This document shows, piece after piece, positions 6,611-30,802 of a stretch of 51,626 nucleotides of DNA. The notes beneath the pieces are model-generated. The model had not been told where the DNA came from. It saw nothing but the letters and a program-made list of their open reading frames with translations, and ran no database searches. How positions within the stretch are numbered: the first letter of the stretch is position 1; each line of letters starts with the position of its first letter. The position numbers were made by a program, and so were the translations under genes. The DNA is from Geobacteraceae bacterium (lineage in GTDB: Bacteria > Desulfobacterota > Desulfuromonadia > Geobacterales > Pseudopelobacteraceae): contig JANXYR010000021.1 of the NCBI GenBank assembly GCA_025355965.1, positions 1 through 51,626 on the forward strand, in the 5' to 3' direction.

Positions 6611-8101
6611 TCAAGGTGCGCCAAGCCAGTTTCGATTGGCAGCAGGGGCGATGTTTCCGTGAATCTTTATCGTACTATTCCCGCTGTCATGGCATTCGAA
6701 CGTACAGGTATAGGTGTGGGTTGATTGATCGTAGGTTGCGTTGAGAATAGTCCCGGTGATCGGGTCCTTGAAGGTCAAAGTTGCTTTCGGATGCTGCTCG
6801 AAGGTTGAAGTGGCTAGGTTGCTGAAGTGCCCGATAGAGAGCTTTGCAGTGTCGTGGCAGTCCCAGCAGCGGATTGAATGATCAATGTGAGCGGTGTGCC
6901 AGCCTGAATTGTAGCTGTTGTACTGGTTGGTGCCGGTGCTGTGGCACATGTCGCATTCGGTATTCAGGTTTATGGCCGCGCCCCCCCAGGCCGGGCTGTC
7001 TTTGCCGCCGTGGCAGCTGACGTTGCTGCAGATCCCCCCTGTGTAGACTGGCGCTAACGCCGGTTTTGCCATGTAAATGGCCGTAGAGAGGGCGAGGTTG
7101 GTGGTCCCGTTGGCGTGGGTCAGTGTACCGGTGGCAAAGTCGGGAACGAAACCACTATGGCAGACGGCACAGTTGGCAGCAACCCCGGCGATGGCGTTGT
7201 GCTTGGAGTGAGCGCCTCTCCTGTTCGGCGCCACGCTACCGCTGGGCGGACTGCCGTGGCACGAAAGGCAGCCGGTCGGATTCGCCACGGGGCTGCTGCT
7301 ATGGCAGCGGATCCCGTTTACCGTTGATGCCATGCACGACGGAGCGGTGGCGCCACCGGTCAGATCAACTCCGTGGCATAGACCGCAGGAGATAACAGAG
7401 TTGGTGGCAGTGGTATTAATATGGCTGGTGGTATTGGCCGGGATTCCCCTTCCGGCCAGCCACGGTGCCGGGTGAGCTGTGTTGGCGATATGACAGCCGG
7501 CTGATTCGCAGCCTGCCGGCAAGTTTGTTTTCGGGATAGCGAAGCGTGGGGGGGTGGCGGAGTTCGCATGGCACTTCTGGCAGTAGACCAGATTGTCCTT
7601 GGCCAGACGGCCGTGCAGTCCAGGGGCCGCAAAGCCGGCAGGGTGCAGAGGGCCGGACGCGTGGCAGCTCTGCTCTCTTAGGCTTGCGCTGAAGCAGCTG
7701 ACGTTGGCTACTCCTGTAGCGGCAGCCGGATCGGTGTAGGAACCGTGGCAGACAACGCACTGCTCCCTGTCACTATTGAACACGACAAAATGTGTAGCGA
7801 TAAAGCCTGCTGCGTGGCCGTCCGGTCCGTTGGCATGACAGCGGCGGTTACCTATATTCGTGTTGAAGCAGCTCAGATTGGCAATACCCCCTTTGAGGTC
7901 GTTACCGTGGCATGTTCTGCATTGAGTTCGGTTTTTCTGGTATTCGGACCAGTGCCGGTCGAGCCAGGCTGCTGGATGTTTGCCATTGGCATTGATCATT
8001 GGTGACTTGTCGTTGCCGGTGCCGCATCCGCCAAGAAGGACCATTAGCAGGGCCAGGCTGCCAGTCAGCAACAGTGCCGTCAGAATTCTTTTTCTACTCA
8101 T
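6611..8101 (-). CDS. outer-membrane multiheme c-type cytochrome lipoprotein (ExtD/Omc-like)
   Basis: The start is the ATG at 8101 (GAGGG 7 bases upstream), which opens with a lipoprotein signal ending LLGGC (Cys26); the longer frame from 8176 is not needed. The 496-residue product has eight CXXCH motifs (CRTCH, CVVCH, CQKCH, CGLCH, CLSCH, CAVCH, CDMCH, CWDCH), two CX4CH (CESAGCH, CSNVSCH), one CX3CH (CTFECH) and three CX9CH. That makes up to 14 heme sites. CSNVSCH followed by CDMCH is the Geobacter CX4CH...CXXCH domain. It is the last gene of a porin-pentaheme-multiheme cluster and is probably the cell-surface member that passes electrons to external acceptors. Order and sizes resemble extB-extC-extD of G. 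sulfurreducens (family knowledge; identity not tested). Confidence 0.85.
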   Translation of the reverse strand: MSRKRILTALLLTGSLALLMVLLGGCGTGNDKSPMINANGKHPAAWLDRHWSEYQKNRTQCRTCHGNDLKGGIANLSCFNTNIGNRRCHANGPDGHAAGFIATHFVVFNSDREQCVVCHGSYTDPAAATGVANVSCFSASLREQSCHASGPLHPAGFAAPGLHGRLAKDNLVYCQKCHANSATPPRFAIPKTNLPAGCESAGCHIANTAHPAPWLAGRGIPANTTSHINTTATNSVISCGLCHGVDLTGGATAPSCMASTVNGIRCHSSSPVANPTGCLSCHGSPPSGSVAPNRRGAHSKHNAIAGVAANCAVCHSGFVPDFATGTLTHANGTTNLALSTAIYMAKPALAPVYTGGICSNVSCHGGKDSPAWGGAAINLNTECDMCHSTGTNQYNSYNSGWHTAHIDHSIRCWDCHDTAKLSIGHFSNLATSTFEQHPKATLTFKDPITGTILNATYDQSTHTYTCTFECHDSGNSTIKIHGNIAPAANRNWLGAP

Positions 8102-8148
8102 TACAGTTCCCTCACTCGGGCATTTTTTCCAGACTCGCCAGGCACCAT

Positions 8149-8628
8149 TTATCGCTGGCGATGACAGCTGATGCACTTCTCGTTGTTGCCCCGGCCGTGA
8201 CAGCGGTAACAGCTGACCGGATCGATCTTGCCGTCGATGCGGTGGCGGGTCATGAAGTCACCCCGGTGGGGAAGCTCCCGGTCCGGTCGGTCGCCTAGTT
8301 TGGTCGAAGGTTTGACCTCATTCCGGTTGGCGTGGCAGTCGGTGCAAAAGGAAGCGGCATGACAGAGAGTGCAGAGCTGGCCGTCTTGTCCGGCTGGGAA
8401 GCGGTGCTCTTTAATGAAAAATGGAGTGTGATCAAAGGTTGCATAGGGTTTTAATACACTCTTAAGCTGATCCTGATGGCATTCGGAGCAAATTGGTCTT
8501 GCTTCAGTAAGCTTTTCCGGGTGGGTTGTCGGAAACCGGTCAGAGTTTGCACTGAGGATGCTGCAGGCGGTGAAGAGAAACAGTCCGCCAATAAGCGCCA
8601 GCGGGAAGAAAAGATTGATCGGTTTCAT
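8149..8628 (-). CDS. pentaheme c-type cytochrome lipoprotein (ExtC-like)
   Basis: The start is the ATG at 8628, overlapping the porin stop codon (ATGA) and preceded by AGGAG at 7 bases. Upstream codons of the longer frame are porin sequence read in another frame. The 159-residue protein has a lipoprotein signal ending FTAC and five CXXCH motifs: CSECH, CTLCH, CTDCH, CYRCH and CISCH. Several further His residues are available as distal heme ligands. It is translationally coupled to the porin and followed after 47 bases by the large multiheme lipoprotein. A five-heme lipoprotein in this position fits ExtC of the ExtABCD conduit. It is probably on the outer membrane, relaying electrons near the porin. 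Confidence 0.83.
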   Translation of the reverse strand: MKPINLFFPLALIGGLFLFTACSILSANSDRFPTTHPEKLTEARPICSECHQDQLKSVLKPYATFDHTPFFIKEHRFPAGQDGQLCTLCHAASFCTDCHANRNEVKPSTKLGDRPDRELPHRGDFMTRHRIDGKIDPVSCYRCHGRGNNEKCISCHRQR

Positions 8629-9929
8629 TTGCCGGCTCCTTTGATGATAAGTTTGTCGAAAGCGAAAGTGACGCGGGCGAGCCCCTTGAACTCGATATCG
8701 ACAAGGGGGTTGTCGCCGATGCTGAGGTCGACCGAAAACTTCAACTCTGGCATCAGGTGGTAGCCACAAGAGGCCTGCAGCTCGTAACCATGGTTCTTGC
8801 CGTAGATGGCATCGTCGTAGAACTGGGCGATGGCGTCCAGGCTTCCATCTATTTTCCCCTTGCGGTAAAGGGTATAGCCGCGAAGCTCATGGTAGGAAGA
8901 GAAGTCGGTTTCGCTTCCGGCCTTGAGTTTGCCGGCGCTGGTTCGATGATAGCCGAATCCGGAGAGGTAAGGTCCGCTTGGTATGCGGATGTCGAATCCA
9001 TAGCGATCAGAGGAGTTGCGGCTGTCGCGGCTGAAGTGGCGATAGTCGACTGCCACCTCGGCAGGAACTGGGAGAGCCATGGTTGCGGAGGTGCCGAAGC
9101 TGGAAAAGTTTTCGGCGCGGTCGGTGATAAAAGGGGTCCGGCCGAGATTCGTAGCTGCGAAAAAGTGCTCAAGCGGTGTGCGCTGGGAGTCTGCTGCCAG
9201 TGTGAGGGTTTTGAGCGGCTTATAGGAAAGGCTGTAAAAATGCTCGGTGAACCCGCCGGTGGCCGTGTCATAAAATGATCGGCCATTCAGTTCAAAAGAA
9301 GGGTCGCGCCTGTACCAGAGGTCAACTCCGAGAATTTGCCGGTAGTCGTTAAGTGCTGTTGTTGGGCCGTTATTGTTCATCCCCCCTTCGCGGAGCATTA
9401 AAACTCCGACCTCAAGGATTCCGGCTAACCGCTGGCTGAGTCTGCTACCGACCAGATAATCTCCGGTATTGCCGTTGTCTGTCGGGACTGGCCGACCGGC
9501 GAACAGGGAGAGAGCAAGCCCTGCCGGAGGAAGATCCGCTCTGGCGGAGACTCCGTCTAGCTGAGTGATCATCCCCGCATCGCTCTGGGAAAATCTTCCC
9601 GCCTTCACTTCGCCGTTTGCTTTGGGAAGGCTGTAGCGCAGATAGCCGTAACTGAAGGTACTGTCGGTCGAACCTTTTTCGCTGCTGTTATCGGCGAAGT
9701 CGGCCCGCTTCCAGCCGTACAGATTGAGAGAAAGATTACCGTCGTACAGGCCGGAGCTGTCAAACCCGAAAAACTGGGTTGCCGGCAGCAGGGTCTTTTT
9801 GGCAAACCCGGGGTAGGACTGCTTTTCCAGACGGACGAGCGTGGTGCTGTTCACCCCGAAGTCGGCGGCTGCAGTGAACGACGGCAGTAGCGCGGCAAGA
9901 AGGAGACAGAAACCGACACGTCTTTTCAT
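8625..9929 (-). CDS. outer-membrane beta-barrel porin of a porin-cytochrome conduit (ExtB-like)
   Basis: The 434-residue protein has a Sec signal peptide (MKRRVGFCLLLAALLPSFTA, cleavage near AAA-DF). The mature part alternates polar and hydrophobic residues over about 16 or more amphipathic strands, such as LSLNLYGWKRADF, FSYGYLRYSLP and EVAVDYRHFSRDS. The last strand, VTFAFDKLIIKGAGK, is atypical in not ending with Phe. It has no heme motif. In Geobacter conduits the porin encloses a periplasmic cytochrome and lets electrons cross the outer membrane. Here it is the first gene of the minus-strand operon and overlaps the pentaheme gene by four bases. No periplasmic partner cytochrome precedes it, which is unusual. 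Confidence 0.82.
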   Translation of the reverse strand: MKRRVGFCLLLAALLPSFTAAADFGVNSTTLVRLEKQSYPGFAKKTLLPATQFFGFDSSGLYDGNLSLNLYGWKRADFADNSSEKGSTDSTFSYGYLRYSLPKANGEVKAGRFSQSDAGMITQLDGVSARADLPPAGLALSLFAGRPVPTDNGNTGDYLVGSRLSQRLAGILEVGVLMLREGGMNNNGPTTALNDYRQILGVDLWYRRDPSFELNGRSFYDTATGGFTEHFYSLSYKPLKTLTLAADSQRTPLEHFFAATNLGRTPFITDRAENFSSFGTSATMALPVPAEVAVDYRHFSRDSRNSSDRYGFDIRIPSGPYLSGFGYHRTSAGKLKAGSETDFSSYHELRGYTLYRKGKIDGSLDAIAQFYDDAIYGKNHGYELQASCGYHLMPELKFSVDLSIGDNPLVDIEFKGLARVTFAFDKLIIKGAGK

Positions 9930-9994: not shown

Positions 9995-10081
9995 ACAACA
10001 GCCGAAAATAACCGAAAAAATCTGAGCTTCTTGCAAAAGTCAAAAAAGTCTCCTATCCCCTGGCGGGGGAGTTTGATCCGA

Positions 10082-10149
10082 AATTGCGTTGACACTACCC
10101 TGCTCCGAGTGTATTTTTTGACCATCAAAAAAACAAATTCTGATCCTTT
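10082..10149 (+). promoter_or_regulatory. promoter/operator block, copy A (before hybrid kinase)
   Basis: TTGACA at 10089-10094, a 17-base spacer and TATTTT at 10112-10117 form a strong sigma-70 promoter. Right after the -10 box lies an inverted repeat, TTTTTTGA-CCA-TCAAAAAA (10114-10132), covering the expected transcription start. The whole 68-base block matches 29832-29900 at about 80% by eye, with one gap. Upstream flanks are unrelated. The inverted repeat is a likely operator. Confidence 0.75.
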
Positions 10150-10163
10150 CTAATGGGGCGCAA

Positions 10164-12662
10164 ATGACCGCCACAACACGCCTGCCACTTAAGACATACA
10201 GCGCAATTCCACTTCTCCTGCTCTGCCTGCTCCTCTGTACGGTAACTTCAGGTTTATGCAGCGCAGAGAACAACGCCCAGACCGCCCCGCGCAAGGTTAT
10301 TGCTGCAATACCCATTGATTTTCCGCCGACCTATTTTCTGGACAAGAGTGGCAAACCGGTCGGCTTTGCCATTGACGTGATGAACGAACTTGCGCAAAGG
10401 GCGGGACTGAAGCTTGAATATGTTACCGGACAGGCATGGGATGATGTTATCCAAATGGTTCTGTCCGGCAAAGCCGACCTGATTCCGAGCCTGACCATCG
10501 ACGAGAGGCGCAAGGAGCTGCTTGCCTTTACCAACAGTGTTGAATTTATGCCGGCCAATCTGATCGTGGCGAGCGGGAATCATACGGTCAGGGGGATATC
10601 TCCGGGGCTTAACATCGGCGTTATGAAGGGGAGCGCTCCTGACAATCTTCTGAAGAAGAATCAGACCATACGGCTTACGACCTTTACCAATCTCCAGACA
10701 ATGCTGTTTGAGCTCCTTGCAGGCCAAGTAGACGGCATAGTGCCATTGACACCGAACCTTATGAAGCTGGCAATTGATGCGGGTGTTGAGGGCAAGATCA
10801 AGGTGGTCGGCAATCCGATCATCGAAGCAAAACGTGGTATCGCCCTTAGGAAAGGGGATACGGAGCTGCTCACTCGTCTCGATAAGGCAATAGATGAATT
10901 TGTTGGTACTCCCGAACACCAGCTGATCTACGCGAAATGGTACGGCAAACCGAAGCTTTACTGGACAGTGGGCAAGATTTCCGCTGTCGGTGGCATGTTT
11001 CTGGTTCTTATCCTGTGTGGCATGGTTTTCTGGCGCTATCGCTCAATTTTGCAGCTCAATAACAGCCTTGCACAAAGTATTGCCGAGCGTGAACGTGCCG
11101 TGGAGGAGTTGCGGGGAAGTGAGCAACAGTTAAGCCTGTTGCTGGCAAGCACTGCCGAGGCCATCTATGGGGTGGATCTGGAAGGGAATTGTACCTTTGC
11201 CAATCCTTCCTGCATAAGGATGCTCGGATTAGACTCGGCTGCCGACATACTTGGCAAGAACATTCACGACCTGATTCATTATAAGCGGCCGGACGGCACG
11301 CCTTTTCTTTCTGCGGAATGCGACAAGCTCAAAACAATTCAAGAGGGGAAAATCTGTCACGCAGATGACGAGGTTTTCTTGCGTGCCGATGGTTCGTCCG
11401 TTTATGTTGAGTATAGGTCCTATCCCATCATAAAAGACGGGAGACTGCTTGGTGCTGTTGTCACCTTTCTGGATATCTCCGAGCGCAAACGGACCGAGGA
11501 AGAGCGTCTCCAACTGGAAAAACAGCTCCTCCACGCCCAGAAGCTGGAGAGCCTGGGGGTGCTGGCCGGGGGGATTGCTCATGACTTTAACAACATCCTC
11601 ACCTCCATCATGGGTAATGCCGATCTTGCCCTGATGCGTCTGAACCCCGAATCTCCCGCAGTCGACAACCTGCGCCGGATCGAACAATCGGCAGTCCGGG
11701 CTGCCGATCTGGCCAAGCAGATGCTTGCCTACTCCGGCAAAGGCAAGTTTGTCATCGAACAGCTCGACATAAACCGGCTCGTCGAAGAGATGCTCCATAT
11801 GCTGGAAGTCTCCATCTCCAAAAAAGCAGTACTCCGACTGAACCTGCACCAACCGCTGCCTGGCGTAGCAGCCGACGCCACCCAACTGCGTCAGATCATA
11901 ATGAATTTGGTGATCAACGCTTCCGAAGCGATCGGTGACAAGAGCGGTGTCATCGCCATAACCACCGGTTGCATGGAATGCGACCACAACTACCTGAAAG
12001 ACGTCTGGCTGGACGAAAATCTGAACGAAGGTCTGTATGTTTACCTGGAGATAGCGGACAGCGGCTGTGGTATGGATCGGGGTACACTGGCGAAAATCTT
12101 CGACCCCTTTTTCACCACCAAATTAACAGGCAGAGGCTTGGGGATGGCCGCCGTAATGGGGATAGTCCGTGGTCATAAAGGTGCCATCAAAGTCTACAGC
12201 GAGCCGAAAAAAGGGACGACCTTCAAAGTTCTTTTTCCTGCAGACAGCAGGCCGGCCGAACTGTTCGATAGCCAACCCTCTCCGGAAGAGTGGCAGGGGT
12301 GCGGCACCGTTCTACTGGTTGATGACGAAGAAACCGTGCGGGCTATCGGCAGCGAGATGCTGCGCGAATTAGGTTTTAAGGTGATAACCGCCGATGACGG
12401 GCGCCATGCTCTGGAACAGTACAAAGCCCACGACGGGATATGCCTGGTCATTCTCGATTTGACCATGCCGCATCTGGACGGCGAACAGACTTTTCGGGAG
12501 TTGCGGCGGATTAATTCCGAGGTGAAAGTGATCATGTCAAGTGGCTACAACGAGAGCGAAGTTACCCAGAAATTTGCCGGCAAGGGGCTCTCAGGGTTCA
12601 TTCAGAAGCCATATAGGATGTCAGTATTCAAAGAGGTCTTGGGTAAACTAAATAATACGTGA
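10164..12662 (+). CDS. hybrid sensor histidine kinase with periplasmic solute-binding sensor, PAS and receiver domains
   Basis: The 832-residue inner-membrane protein has, in order, a signal sequence (about 13-33), a periplasmic SBP_bac_3-type sensor (about 42-270, VIAAIPIDFPPTYFLDKSGKPVGFAIDV), one membrane span (about 275-297), a PAS domain (about 320-435), a HisKA region with phospho-acceptor His in GGIAHDFNNILTSI, an ATPase domain (NLVINASEAI, DSGCGMDRG) and a C-terminal receiver (LLVDDEETV, LVILDLTMP, K in FIQKPY). The solute-binding domain suggests direct sensing of an amino acid or similar small molecule. It has no DNA-binding domain, so a separate regulator must act on its output. It is divergent from the porin-cytochrome operon and carries the copy A promoter, which suggests a role in controlling electron-transfer genes (inference). 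Confidence 0.93.
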   Translation: MTATTRLPLKTYSAIPLLLLCLLLCTVTSGLCSAENNAQTAPRKVIAAIPIDFPPTYFLDKSGKPVGFAIDVMNELAQRAGLKLEYVTGQAWDDVIQMVLSGKADLIPSLTIDERRKELLAFTNSVEFMPANLIVASGNHTVRGISPGLNIGVMKGSAPDNLLKKNQTIRLTTFTNLQTMLFELLAGQVDGIVPLTPNLMKLAIDAGVEGKIKVVGNPIIEAKRGIALRKGDTELLTRLDKAIDEFVGTPEHQLIYAKWYGKPKLYWTVGKISAVGGMFLVLILCGMVFWRYRSILQLNNSLAQSIAERERAVEELRGSEQQLSLLLASTAEAIYGVDLEGNCTFANPSCIRMLGLDSAADILGKNIHDLIHYKRPDGTPFLSAECDKLKTIQEGKICHADDEVFLRADGSSVYVEYRSYPIIKDGRLLGAVVTFLDISERKRTEEERLQLEKQLLHAQKLESLGVLAGGIAHDFNNILTSIMGNADLALMRLNPESPAVDNLRRIEQSAVRAADLAKQMLAYSGKGKFVIEQLDINRLVEEMLHMLEVSISKKAVLRLNLHQPLPGVAADATQLRQIIMNLVINASEAIGDKSGVIAITTGCMECDHNYLKDVWLDENLNEGLYVYLEIADSGCGMDRGTLAKIFDPFFTTKLTGRGLGMAAVMGIVRGHKGAIKVYSEPKKGTTFKVLFPADSRPAELFDSQPSPEEWQGCGTVLLVDDEETVRAIGSEMLRELGFKVITADDGRHALEQYKAHDGICLVILDLTMPHLDGEQTFRELRRINSEVKVIMSSGYNESEVTQKFAGKGLSGFIQKPYRMSVFKEVLGKLNNT

Positions 12663-26445: not shown

Positions 26446-26546
26446 CGTTTTTCCGCCAGTAGACTTTCTGTGGCTGCGTCAATTTCCTTTTGACTTTCAT
26501 CTCCCCTGTCTGCTACAAACTTCAACACAATTGTTTTACCACACGG

Positions 26547-26712
26547 ATTTGGTGCCGTGCCCCGCAGGCACGGTTAAAAGGGAAGAAGGTTAAAATCCTT
26601 CGCTGACCCGCAACTGTAACAGGCGATGAACGCCGCATTATGCCACTGGATCTTTCCGGGAAGGCGCGGTTAGTAAGATGACCCTGAAGCCAGGAAACCT
26701 GCCATTCCGATT
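26547..26712 (+). promoter_or_regulatory. cobalamin (AdoCbl) riboswitch aptamer
   Basis: The leader has the full set of B12-box strings: GGTGCC near 26551, GGGAA..GGT near 26581, GACCCGCAACTGT near 26614, GCCACTGG at 26642, CCGGGAAGGC near 26657 and the B12 box GAAGCCAGGAAACCTGCC at 26686-26703. It lies before cobU and ends upstream of an intrinsic terminator. When cobalamin binds, the terminator should form and shut off cobU-cobT-bzaF. Edges are approximate. Confidence 0.95.
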
Positions 26713-26777
26713 TAGTTTTGGGACCTCCGTGGAACGAGTGGCCGAAGCCTGATCGTATCTAGATTACCTGGTTTTCG

Positions 26778-26817
26778 AGCCCCTGTCCCTTCCATGGACA
26801 GGGGCTTTATATTTTTT
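26778..26817 (+). terminator. riboswitch expression-platform terminator
   Basis: AGCCCCTGTCC (26778-26788), loop CTTCCAT and GGACAGGGGCT (26796-26806) form a perfect 11-bp stem, followed by TTATATTTTTT. It ends 16 bases before the cobU start. This shows that the riboswitch acts by transcription attenuation. Confidence 0.93.
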
Positions 26818-28455: not shown

Positions 28456-29763
28456 ATGTCTACCCAGATTGAATTCGCCCGTCAGGGTATTGTCACCCCA
28501 CAGATGCAGACTGTAGCGTTCAACGAGCAGCTTGAGGTTGAATACATCCGCCGGATGGTTGCCGAAGGGAAGATCGTAATCCCCTGGAACCACGGTCGCA
28601 AACCCAAGGTGGTGGGCATCGGCAAGGGACTCTCAACCAAGGTCAACGCTTCGATCGGCACCTCATCCGACATCATTGACTACGAGGCCGAAGTGCGCAA
28701 GGCGTTGGCGGCACAGGAATCCGGCGCCGACACGCTGATGGAACTTTCCGTGGGGGGCGACCTGGACCGCGTCCGGCGCGAGGTAATCGCCTCCGTAGAC
28801 CTGCCGGTGGGGAATGTGCCACTCTACCAAGCGTTCTGCGAGGCGGCCCGCAAATACGGTGACCCTAACAGGCTGGATGATGAGATGCTCTTTGATATTA
28901 TAGAAAAGCAGTGTGCCGACGGCATGGCTTTTATGGCGGTACACTGTGGCATCAACCGCTGCACGATTGAGCGGTTGCGCAAGCAGGGATACCGCTACGG
29001 CGGGCTGGTTTCCAAGGGGGGGGTGTCGATGGTTGCCTGGATGATCGCCAACAACCGGGAAAACCCGCTTTACGAAAAGTTCGACCGGGTCGCCTCGATC
29101 CTTAAGAAATACGACACCGTACTTTCCCTTGGCAATGGTCTGCGCGCCGGGGCGATCCATGATTCATCGGACCGCGCCCAGATCCAGGAGCTGATATTCA
29201 ACTGCGAGCTGGCCGAGATCGGTCGCGACATGGGGTGCCAGATGCTGGTGGAAGGGCCTGGACACGTGCCGCTGGACGAGATTGAGGGGAATATTCAGCT
29301 ACAAAAGCGGATGAGCGGCGGAGCGCCATATTATATGCTTGGTCCGATCGCTACTGACGTCGCACCCGGTTTTGACCATATCACCGCCGCGATCGGCGCG
29401 GCCCAGTCCAGCCGCTTTGGGGCCGACCTGATCTGTTACATAACTCCTGCCGAGCATCTTGCCCTCCCGAACGAAGAGGATGTGCGTACCGGCGTCAAAA
29501 CCGCCAAGATTGCGGCCTATATCGGCGACATGAACAAGTACCCTGAAAAAGGGCGCCAGCGGGACAAGGAGATGTCCAAAGCGCGCCGCGATCTGGACTG
29601 GGAAAAACAGTTCCAATTGGCGCTCTATCCTGAGGATGCCCGTGCGATCCGTGCCAGCCGCACTCCGGAGGATGAGGCCACCTGCACGATGTGCGGCGAT
29701 TTCTGTGCATCACGCGGGGCGGGGAAGCTGTTTGCCTGTGATTTGAAGGGCGACAAAATTTAG
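28456..29763 (+). CDS. bzaF: ThiC-family radical SAM enzyme, probable 5-hydroxybenzimidazole synthase BzaF
   Basis: The 435-residue protein is of the ThiC fold: QIEFARQGIVTPQM, IPWNHGRKPKVVGIG, KVNASIGTSSD, DTLMELSVGGDL, MAVHCGINRCTI and the C-terminal cluster motif CTMCGDFC. ThiC proteins make the thiamin pyrimidine from aminoimidazole ribotide; their paralogue BzaF makes 5-hydroxybenzimidazole, an anaerobic B12 lower-ligand precursor. I favour BzaF because the gene is 15 bases after cobT, shares the cobalamin riboswitch, and has no TPP riboswitch or thi gene near it. The cluster cysteines are spaced CX2CX3C, one shorter than the CX2CX4C of E. coli ThiC. A thiC assignment cannot be fully excluded. 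Confidence 0.85.
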   Translation: MSTQIEFARQGIVTPQMQTVAFNEQLEVEYIRRMVAEGKIVIPWNHGRKPKVVGIGKGLSTKVNASIGTSSDIIDYEAEVRKALAAQESGADTLMELSVGGDLDRVRREVIASVDLPVGNVPLYQAFCEAARKYGDPNRLDDEMLFDIIEKQCADGMAFMAVHCGINRCTIERLRKQGYRYGGLVSKGGVSMVAWMIANNRENPLYEKFDRVASILKKYDTVLSLGNGLRAGAIHDSSDRAQIQELIFNCELAEIGRDMGCQMLVEGPGHVPLDEIEGNIQLQKRMSGGAPYYMLGPIATDVAPGFDHITAAIGAAQSSRFGADLICYITPAEHLALPNEEDVRTGVKTAKIAAYIGDMNKYPEKGRQRDKEMSKARRDLDWEKQFQLALYPEDARAIRASRTPEDEATCTMCGDFCASRGAGKLFACDLKGDKI

Positions 29764-29831
29764 CGTGAACAAAGTAAGCTGGCCAGCCACGATCTCTTCT
29801 TCTCGTATACAATTTCATTAAAATCTTTAGG

Positions 29832-29900
29832 AATTGCGTTGACACTGACTTGCTTCAGGTGTATTTTTCGACATTCAAAAAAAGCAAATTCCAATCATTT
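29832..29900 (+). promoter_or_regulatory. promoter/operator block, copy B (before dodecaheme cytochrome)
   Basis: TTGACA (29839-29844), a 17-base spacer and TATTTT (29862-29867) repeat the copy A arrangement exactly. The inverted repeat TTTTTCGA-CAT-TCAAAAAA (29864-29882) has one mismatch. The 69-base block aligns with 10082-10149 with about 12 differences and one inserted base. It is followed by a 44-base leader and the cytochrome start. Confidence 0.75.
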
Positions 29901-29944
29901 ATCCTTTGATTGGTTCAAATCACACAGAAATAGGGGGGGAACAG

Positions 29945-30802
29945 ATGAACAAGTTGTTAACAACGTTGAAAATGGTCACTTTGTCAGCATTGCTGATGGG
30001 GATGACGGTAGTGGCTGCCGGAGCAGCAGAAGAGCCGAAGCCGGTGCTGAGCAATACAGATTGTGTTAAGTGTCACTCGGCAGCACCTGCGGCGATTGCT
30101 GCAAATGGTCGCGCACACAAAACAGAGATCGGCTGTCAGGATTGTCATAACGGCCATCCGCCAACGGTTAAAAAAATAATTCCGGCCTGTAGCCAGTGTC
30201 ACAGCGACAAACCACACTACAAGCTTGTTAACTGTATGCGTTGTCACACCAATCCGCACACACCGAAAATTATCAAACTGCCTAAAGATATTACTGCTGA
30301 GTGCCTCACCTGCCATACAAAGCAGAATGAAAAACTGAAACAGTTCAAAAGCAAGCACTCTGCTCTTTCTTGCAGTTTCTGCCATACTACTCATGGCAAG
30401 ATTCCGCTCTGTACCCAGTGCCACAAGTCGCATAGTCCTGAAATGCTAGTGGGTGACTGCAAGCGTTGTCACCAGGCCCATATGCCGAAGGTGGTAACGT
30501 ATACTTCGGATACAGCCAACAATCTATGTGGATCATGCCACAAGAAGGCTTCTGTGCTGCACTCAAAGACCGATACCAAGCATAATAAAGTTGCCTGTGT
30601 TGCCTGTCATAAAGACAAACACAAAATGGTTCCATCCTGTAAGGATTGCCATGGAGCACCGCATCCGGCACGTATAATGGAGCGTTTTAACAAGTGCTCG
30701 TACTGTCACAACATCGCACACGACCTGAATCGCTGGGAGCCTGAAGCTCCGAAAAAGCCGGGTACTGCGGTAAAACAGTCTCCAAAAGCCGTTAAAAAGT
30801 AA
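29945..30802 (+). CDS. periplasmic dodecaheme c-type cytochrome (ExtA-like)
   Basis: The frame reaches back to 29906, but ATG 29945 has GGGGGGAA 5 bases upstream and opens a Sec signal peptide (cleavage near AAGAAEEP). The 285-residue product holds twelve CXXCH motifs: CVKCH, CQDCH, CSQCH, CMRCH, CLTCH, CSFCH, CTQCH, CKRCH, CGSCH, CVACH, CKDCH and CSYCH, about one per 19 residues. It has no lipobox and should be soluble in the periplasm. The size and heme number are those of the ExtA component of Geobacter ExtABCD (family knowledge; identity untested). Its promoter block is shared with the region beside the extBCD-like cluster 20 kb away. It interrupts the cobalamin gene set and has its own terminator. 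Confidence 0.87.
   Translation: MNKLLTTLKMVTLSALLMGMTVVAAGAAEEPKPVLSNTDCVKCHSAAPAAIAANGRAHKTEIGCQDCHNGHPPTVKKIIPACSQCHSDKPHYKLVNCMRCHTNPHTPKIIKLPKDITAECLTCHTKQNEKLKQFKSKHSALSCSFCHTTHGKIPLCTQCHKSHSPEMLVGDCKRCHQAHMPKVVTYTSDTANNLCGSCHKKASVLHSKTDTKHNKVACVACHKDKHKMVPSCKDCHGAPHPARIMERFNKCSYCHNIAHDLNRWEPEAPKKPGTAVKQSPKAVKK

Follow-up and report, generated by a model that had tools for sequence, protein, structure and literature searches.

Two promoter blocks in a Geobacteraceae contig are probably truncated right ends of an IS91-family element

The window, that is, the whole stretch of 51,626 nucleotides of Geobacteraceae DNA that was analysed, contains two similar intergenic blocks in front of different genes. 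The first block (10080..10148, plus strand; R1 match of 67.6 bits, E 2.1e-18; one of the 58 rows of alignment A2) lies before the gene of an 832-aa hybrid kinase (10164..12662, plus strand), in which a domain search found the architecture SBP_bac_3-PAS-HisKA-HATPase_c-REC, and the second (29831..29899, plus strand; R1 match of 64.2 bits, E 2.3e-17) precedes the gene of a 285-aa dodecaheme c-type cytochrome (29945..30802, plus strand), recognized by domain search and by its 12 CXXCH motifs. Both genes had been named correctly in the original prediction, as had the repetition itself, placed there at 10082-10149 and 29832-29900: BLASTN aligned 10082-10149 with bases 18-86 of a 29815-29910 query at 81% identity (E 2.5e-11 for the genome). 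The flanks are unrelated, again as predicted, since the similarity between the two copies spans -3 to about +65 relative to GCGTTGACA and then stops. A promoter scan also confirmed TTGACA, a 17-bp spacer and TATTTT in both blocks (10089..10117 and 29839..29867, plus strand); each hexamer pair matches the consensus at 10/12 positions and is the sole promoter-like site in its scanned intergenic region, where shuffled versions of the two regions gave means of 0.3 and 0.4 such sites. Judged by sequence, each block appears to be a functional sigma70 promoter for the gene that follows. Further downstream lie the hand-counted positions of a terminal motif that marks the right end of the element proposed below, in a diverged form, ACAAATTCTGATCC, in copy 1 (10133..10146, plus strand; family form GCAAATTCCTATCC) and as GCAAATTCCAATCA in copy 2 (29884..29897, plus strand). 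Two copies in this genome were detected by BLASTN and three by profile search (C18:10080, C18:29831 and C3:12057), the third and weaker one (G000:C3:12057-12123) being located upstream of the gene of a 629-aa protein with 9 CXXCH motifs and an MtrC/MtrF-like domain, with an orthologous copy in G015:C11. Divergently from the kinase gene, the minus strand of window positions 6611-9929 encodes predicted proteins with 8 and 5 CXXCH motifs and a 434-aa protein that has no Pfam match and is porin-like by eye, a set consistent with the porin-cytochrome cluster named by the original prediction.

The block belongs to a family of about 67 bp, which a profile search (E 1e-5, stricter filters) placed in 30/141 genomes of the order Geobacterales. 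Within the genus, 21/39 genomes had a profile match at E<=0.01, with 15 copies in G008, and 8/39, the own genome included, had a BLASTN match; a draw across the phylum returned the block at 1e-5 in 2/297 genomes, namely the own genome and a second one from its family. The exact pattern of the hexamer region matched 24 stretches in the GTDB collection, 21 of which were Geobacter, Geobacteraceae or Desulfuromonadaceae MAGs, and the remaining 3 are near the number calculated for chance (~3.7, uniform base composition). Spread by phage was rejected, with 0 matches of the exact pattern in viral contigs. Two alignments were used. A1 (26 copies), the basis of the sequence-only profile, omits 3 matches from other phyla or orders as well as L037, which by eye has no downstream half, and adds the two window copies and 4 further ones; it was drawn largely from the exact-pattern search, so the invariance of its pattern columns is partly selected. 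The genomic context was examined for 62 of the 70 order-level places, the 8 weakest (E 1.3e-7 to 3.3e-6) being left out, and A2 comprises 58 of those 62 copies, without the partial, -35-less ones of G130, G030, G120 and G138. Conservation in A2 peaks at AAATTGCGTTGACAC, GTGTATTTT and AAAAAGCAAATTCCTATCC, and the spacer and the start region are weaker. The four partial copies (L117, L118, L119 and L129) have look-alike surroundings in genomes of two families and are perhaps an old end without promoter.

The copies differ at their left and share their right end, because the left reach of similarity varies while the right edge is constant: between unrelated loci the similarity covers about -5 to +62 relative to GCGTTGACA, in some pairs it reaches leftward to about -43, -97 or -194, and most of the longer matches share a right edge at +57 to +70. 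Among 33 copies that match the end motif at >=11/14 positions, conservation drops from >1 bit to almost nothing over the few bases that follow CCTATCC(CT); as these copies were chosen by that motif, conservation inside it is selected, and the drop beyond it is not. Several other identities for the block were considered and rejected. A riboswitch or other conserved RNA did not fit, as the block has no Rfam match and RNAalifold predicted no pair on A1 (the only Rfam matches in the window at the gathering score were a cobalamin riboswitch and a tRNA); a dyad ACCC/GGGT in the spacer showed no excess over shuffles; and inspection by eye found nothing that fitted an integron attC site or a CRISPR leader.

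In less truncated copies, the block terminates a tail of ~235 bp behind an IS91-type (Y2) transposase. The stretch to the left of the block is itself dispersed (13/141 genomes), and at several loci it begins at the stop codon of a protein whose tail ends in VYADSQVIEYQEAYYIPEYL, preceded by DPLTCPNCGGTMRVLAFIEEAAVIRKILDHLGLWD. The 133-residue transposase tail matched no Pfam family by itself; used as a query it found matches in 11/141 genomes, including a full-length relative in G007 (54% identity over 108 C-terminal residues) that scores 178 bits against NF033538 transpos_IS91 (cut-off 125) and carries both Y2_Tnp and Zn_Tnp_IS91. Y2_Tnp (PF04986) remnants that score above cut-off also lie a short distance ahead of the block in G022:C219 and G089, and upstream of a bare end motif in contig C62 of the own genome; both the G089 and the C62 transposase gene are shortened and pass directly into the end, an arrangement that an internal deletion would leave. 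In the C62 case (G000:C62:32470-32802) the remnant meets the terminal motif GCAAATTCCTATCCC, and an apparent tRNA gene lies nearby by eye. The distance from the transposase stop to the end motif was 229-239 bp in 8/15 loci, of which two have similar sequences (G016:C69 and G017:C217); in the other 7/15, pattern searches did not find both the stop region and the end motif. Two additional copies of the motif lie at 265 and 287 in G104. This distance, together with the sharp edge in 33 copies, points to a distinct end downstream of the transposase, and by eye the more divergent members of the family have other promoter-like hexamers in the place of the block before the same end motif. The third copy of the own genome is preceded by 71 bp of this transposase-side tail at 80% identity (C3:11970-12040). 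Searches upstream of the block at either window site found neither transposase nor tail sequence, and similarity to other copies reaches about -12, so that the link of these two sites to IS91 rests on the block itself. An intact transposase of the exact subfamily with both ends was not recovered and its left end was not located; the end motif was not found in 30 Y2_Tnp loci, and the loci inspected later belonged mostly to other IS91-type groups. The end motif occurs in tandem in some places, three times in G104:C115 (L263) and as two adjacent partial matches in G017:C218 (L264), and CCCTAT repeats lie beyond the end in L083 and L095; these features perhaps reflect slippage or repeated processing of the end.

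The copies are strongly oriented with respect to the genes behind them. Using a simple ORF caller, and counting a downstream gene if its near edge lay <=300 bases past the 50th base of the match (the longest such ORF deciding), we found the closely downstream gene on the same strand in 49 of 62 copies, on the opposite strand in 8 and no such gene in 5 (P = 2.7e-8), with upstream neighbours distributed as 26 plus, 29 minus and 7 none. One of the 8 opposite calls is a miscall, dtd in G062 (Tyr_Deacylase), which is thus among the 13/62 copies that the simple ORF caller left without a near same-strand gene. Together with TTGACA-17-TATTTT, this bias argues for an outward sigma70 promoter facing host genes. 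The original prediction had named a dispersed repeat unrelated to promoters as the finding that would refute it: a dispersed repeat it is, but not one unrelated to promoters. Ten proteins identified behind nine blocks are of varied kinds and include DUF488, DUF6627, a protein with a pilin-type methylation motif, an NMT1-like binding protein, an MtrC-like cytochrome, an AAA ATPase, a response regulator and D-Tyr-tRNA deacylase. A cytochrome regulon was rejected, as only 4/49 same-strand downstream genes encode >=2 CXXCH motifs, and the four make up two ortholog pairs of the own genome and G015. At L108 the block precedes a MotA/ExbB and OmpA pair, in which the OmpA protein matches ZorB models and the MotA/ExbB protein matched no PADLOC model; a Zorya-like defence pair under a transposon-end promoter is a possible reading. 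Orthologous genes lie behind the block in three genomes (L108, L123 and L126).

The cytochrome gene offers the clearest view of what such a block may do. It occurs in 21 genomes of the genus (E<=1e-60), and only in the own genome and G015 is it preceded by the block; in both it also adjoins thiC (28456..29763, plus strand, in the window), which was not found near the other 19 orthologs within the fetched flanks of at most 1.5 kb. Neighbourhoods were fetched for seven of these 19 block-less orthologs, and 15 window genes used as queries against them had only the cytochrome in common with them, plus one 36% match in L258. Compared with the G018 neighbourhood, 5/6 of the others have flanking genes in common with it on one or both sides, and in G010 the common genes are more distant; G015 has only the cytochrome in common with it. 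In other species, seven regions upstream of the gene (L204-L210) share a different promoter-like stretch around TTGACG. Over the last 40 bases before the ATG the window is 0.77 identical to these seven native leaders, so that 29905..29944 (plus strand) represents the ancestral leader kept behind the putative transposon end; from -125 to -45 (80 bases) the identity drops to 0.51, equal to that of shuffled sequence (0.50), as against 0.72 among the seven. Within the block itself, the ungapped comparison of copy 2 with its G015 counterpart gave identities of 17/17 in the -35 block, 2/12 in the spacer, 9/9 in the -10 block and 8/15 behind the -10. The simplest reading of these sequences is that in an ancestor of the own genome and G015 the gene was relocated and its promoter replaced by a transposon end. 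Since rolling-circle transfer runs from oriIS to terIS, it would not carry a gene outside the oriIS end, and the move next to thiC is left unexplained by it. The scan detected no terminator-like site between thiC and the cytochrome gene, and read-through from the thiC side could therefore also express the latter. A cobalamin riboswitch (121 bits; window 26533-26720, plus strand) lies before the gene at 26794, two genes ahead of thiC, and, given the lack of a terminator-like site, might also affect the cytochrome gene. At the kinase gene, no promoter change could be shown: its closest near-full-length relative among the matches listed (G012:C32, 64%) has no block at that locus, and a genus profile search at E<=0.01 found no block in G012, G043 or G006. 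A mobile promoter with an IS91-family source at copy 1 is thus suggested from the block alone.

We consider it probable, at roughly 0.83, that the blocks are left-truncated right ends of IS91-family rolling-circle insertion sequences which carry an outward sigma70 promoter and now lie before host genes. Each block would be the right (3', oriIS-side) end of such an element, its left side cut off, stranded before a host gene, and the end would hold a complete outward promoter some tens of bases ahead of the element's terminal bases (AAAGCAAATTCCTATCC); a fragment upstream of a gene could thus start transcription of that gene. The end presumably works as oriIS, the fragments may derive from one-ended or partial transposition rather than later rearrangement, and RNA polymerase would start near 10124 and 29874. 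At the level of sequence, the family, its link to a transposase tail, its orientation bias and the changed cytochrome promoter are all evident. On this explanation the shared block sequence would go back to common descent from a transposon end, and the two window genes would share a promoter because the same kind of end lies before both, and not because one regulator joins them.

Such a regulator was the core of the original prediction, in which a single repressor binds an inverted repeat over the start site and thereby controls kinase and cytochrome together. The repeat is present: TTTTTYGANNNTCAAAAAA occurs exactly twice on the plus strand of the window, at 10114 and 29864, and the arms pair at 8/8 positions in copy 1 (TTTTTTGA-CCA-TCAAAAAA, 10114..10132) and at 7/8 in copy 2 (TTTTTCGA-CAT-TCAAAAAA, 29864..29882). 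Among the 58 aligned copies, only these two reach >=7/8 and the other 56 stay at <=6, two of which pair 0/8 in an aligned stretch that is probably too short to score; a young, lineage-specific operator would match this distribution. The palindrome is nevertheless weak in the third copy of the own genome, where it is absent as a repeat, and also absent upstream of the same cytochrome gene in G015 (protein 94% identical), which has CCAACCGCTT at the place of the window's TCGACATTCA; it is thus conserved neither across members nor across orthologs. Arm pairing showed no excess over shuffles on A1 and no clear excess on A2, where five measures were reached by 316, 379, 50, 487 and 81 of 500 shuffles, the one reached by 50 being cells changed on both sides. 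A T-run and an A-run are features of the whole family, in which the palindrome is not the conserved part, so chance is needed for the inner bases only. As the family moreover precedes unrelated genes, neither the binding of a single regulator to the repeat nor the joint control of the two genes was upheld, and we regard co-control by one repressor as extremely unlikely. An outer repeat, GAAATTGC...GCAAATTC, did exceed shuffles (reached by 7-30 of 500) and may be a feature of the transposon end.

Little more can be said for a host-derived class of promoters that spread through ordinary recombination, with the transposase remnants as coincidental neighbours. Most compared copies do share just the ~67-bp core without a longer tail, and AAATTGCG ahead of the -35 is strongly conserved, but coincidence would have to account for the stop-to-motif distance of 229-239 bp in 8/15 loci, for shortened transposase genes that run into the end in G089 and in C62 of the own genome, and for a sharp right edge before varied downstream genes, which makes this account very unlikely. 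The chance is slimmer still that the block is a neutral relic of a repeat, with no promoter role and with hexamers that arose by chance: the 8/62 copies facing an opposite gene, the 5/62 facing none and the -35-less partial copies of G130, G030, G120 and G138, which lie beside genes of other orientation or with none near, would suit a relic, and yet the orientation bias (P = 2.7e-8), the hexamers kept between orthologs while the spacer changes, and the cytochrome promoter region of other species, unrecognisable where the block stands, all speak against it. More tentatively, the ~67-bp unit could itself be a minimal rolling-circle element, non-autonomous and acting as a mobile promoter that IS91-type transposases still move in trans and that keeps rewiring Geobacterales genes; we think this rather doubtful. 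Two G008 copies (C271 and C110) have look-alike spacers and two G107 copies (C62 and C77) look-alike flanks, and if the unit is such a mini-element, these pairs would be recent jumps. With truncated IS91-family ends as the preferred explanation, the blocks serve as a warning that shared promoter blocks need not mean shared regulation, their likeness being best explained by descent from a transposon end. They also provide a traceable case in which the promoter position of an electron-transfer cytochrome gene is occupied by a transposon end, and because the other promoter is still visible in relatives, the effect of the change on expression is directly testable.

Putative mobile promoters, with the same promoter found before unrelated genes within and between prokaryote genomes, have reportedly been described by Nijveen, van Passel and colleagues; for the present family we propose a source, an IS91-family end. 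In the open-access literature on IS91, MITEs and outward promoters and on Geobacter, no title or opening of an abstract among the papers listed describes the block family. Dispersed multicopy intergenic sequences are known from Geobacter metallireducens and G. bemidjiensis, one family of which often precedes c-type cytochrome genes (PMC2700814, PMC2996986, as far as the parts consulted go), and that family, unlike the block, which has no Rfam match, overlaps predicted cyclic diguanylate riboswitches. According to the sections consulted of PMC6218425, replication of the element by IS91-type transposases proceeds from oriIS to terIS, and ISCR1 has two outward promoters in a 232-bp oriIS region downstream of the transposase, both of which raise downstream expression; the consulted portion of PMC13393415 is in agreement, and complete outward promoters are called a common feature of ISCR-like elements in the part consulted of a review (PMC9330008). 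ISCR1 as described in PMC6218425 resembles the block family, as interpreted here, in its IS91-related transposase, in outward promoters on the oriIS side through which unrelated genes can be expressed, and in tail length (232 bp versus about 235 bp). It differs in its promoters, PCR1-1 and PCR1-2 (POUT) being TAAACG-N17-TAAGAT and TTCGGA-N18-TTTATA, whereas the block has a single predicted near-consensus promoter of different sequence; and the block family consists mostly of truncated solo ends before ordinary genes of the chromosome rather than resistance genes. IS801 belongs to the IS91 family and frequently transposes in the form of miniature fragments with a common right terminus, and most of its genomic fragments probably come from DNA rearrangement and not from transposition, which may therefore hold for the block fragments as well (PMC3189936, consulted in part). 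The IS801 fragments of Pseudomonas syringae in that same source share with the blocks, on the preferred explanation, their IS91-family origin, and also a common right terminus and differing left sides; they measure 229, 360 and 679 nt and were seen to be mobilised, whereas many of the blocks are about 67 bp, diverged and promoter-bearing.
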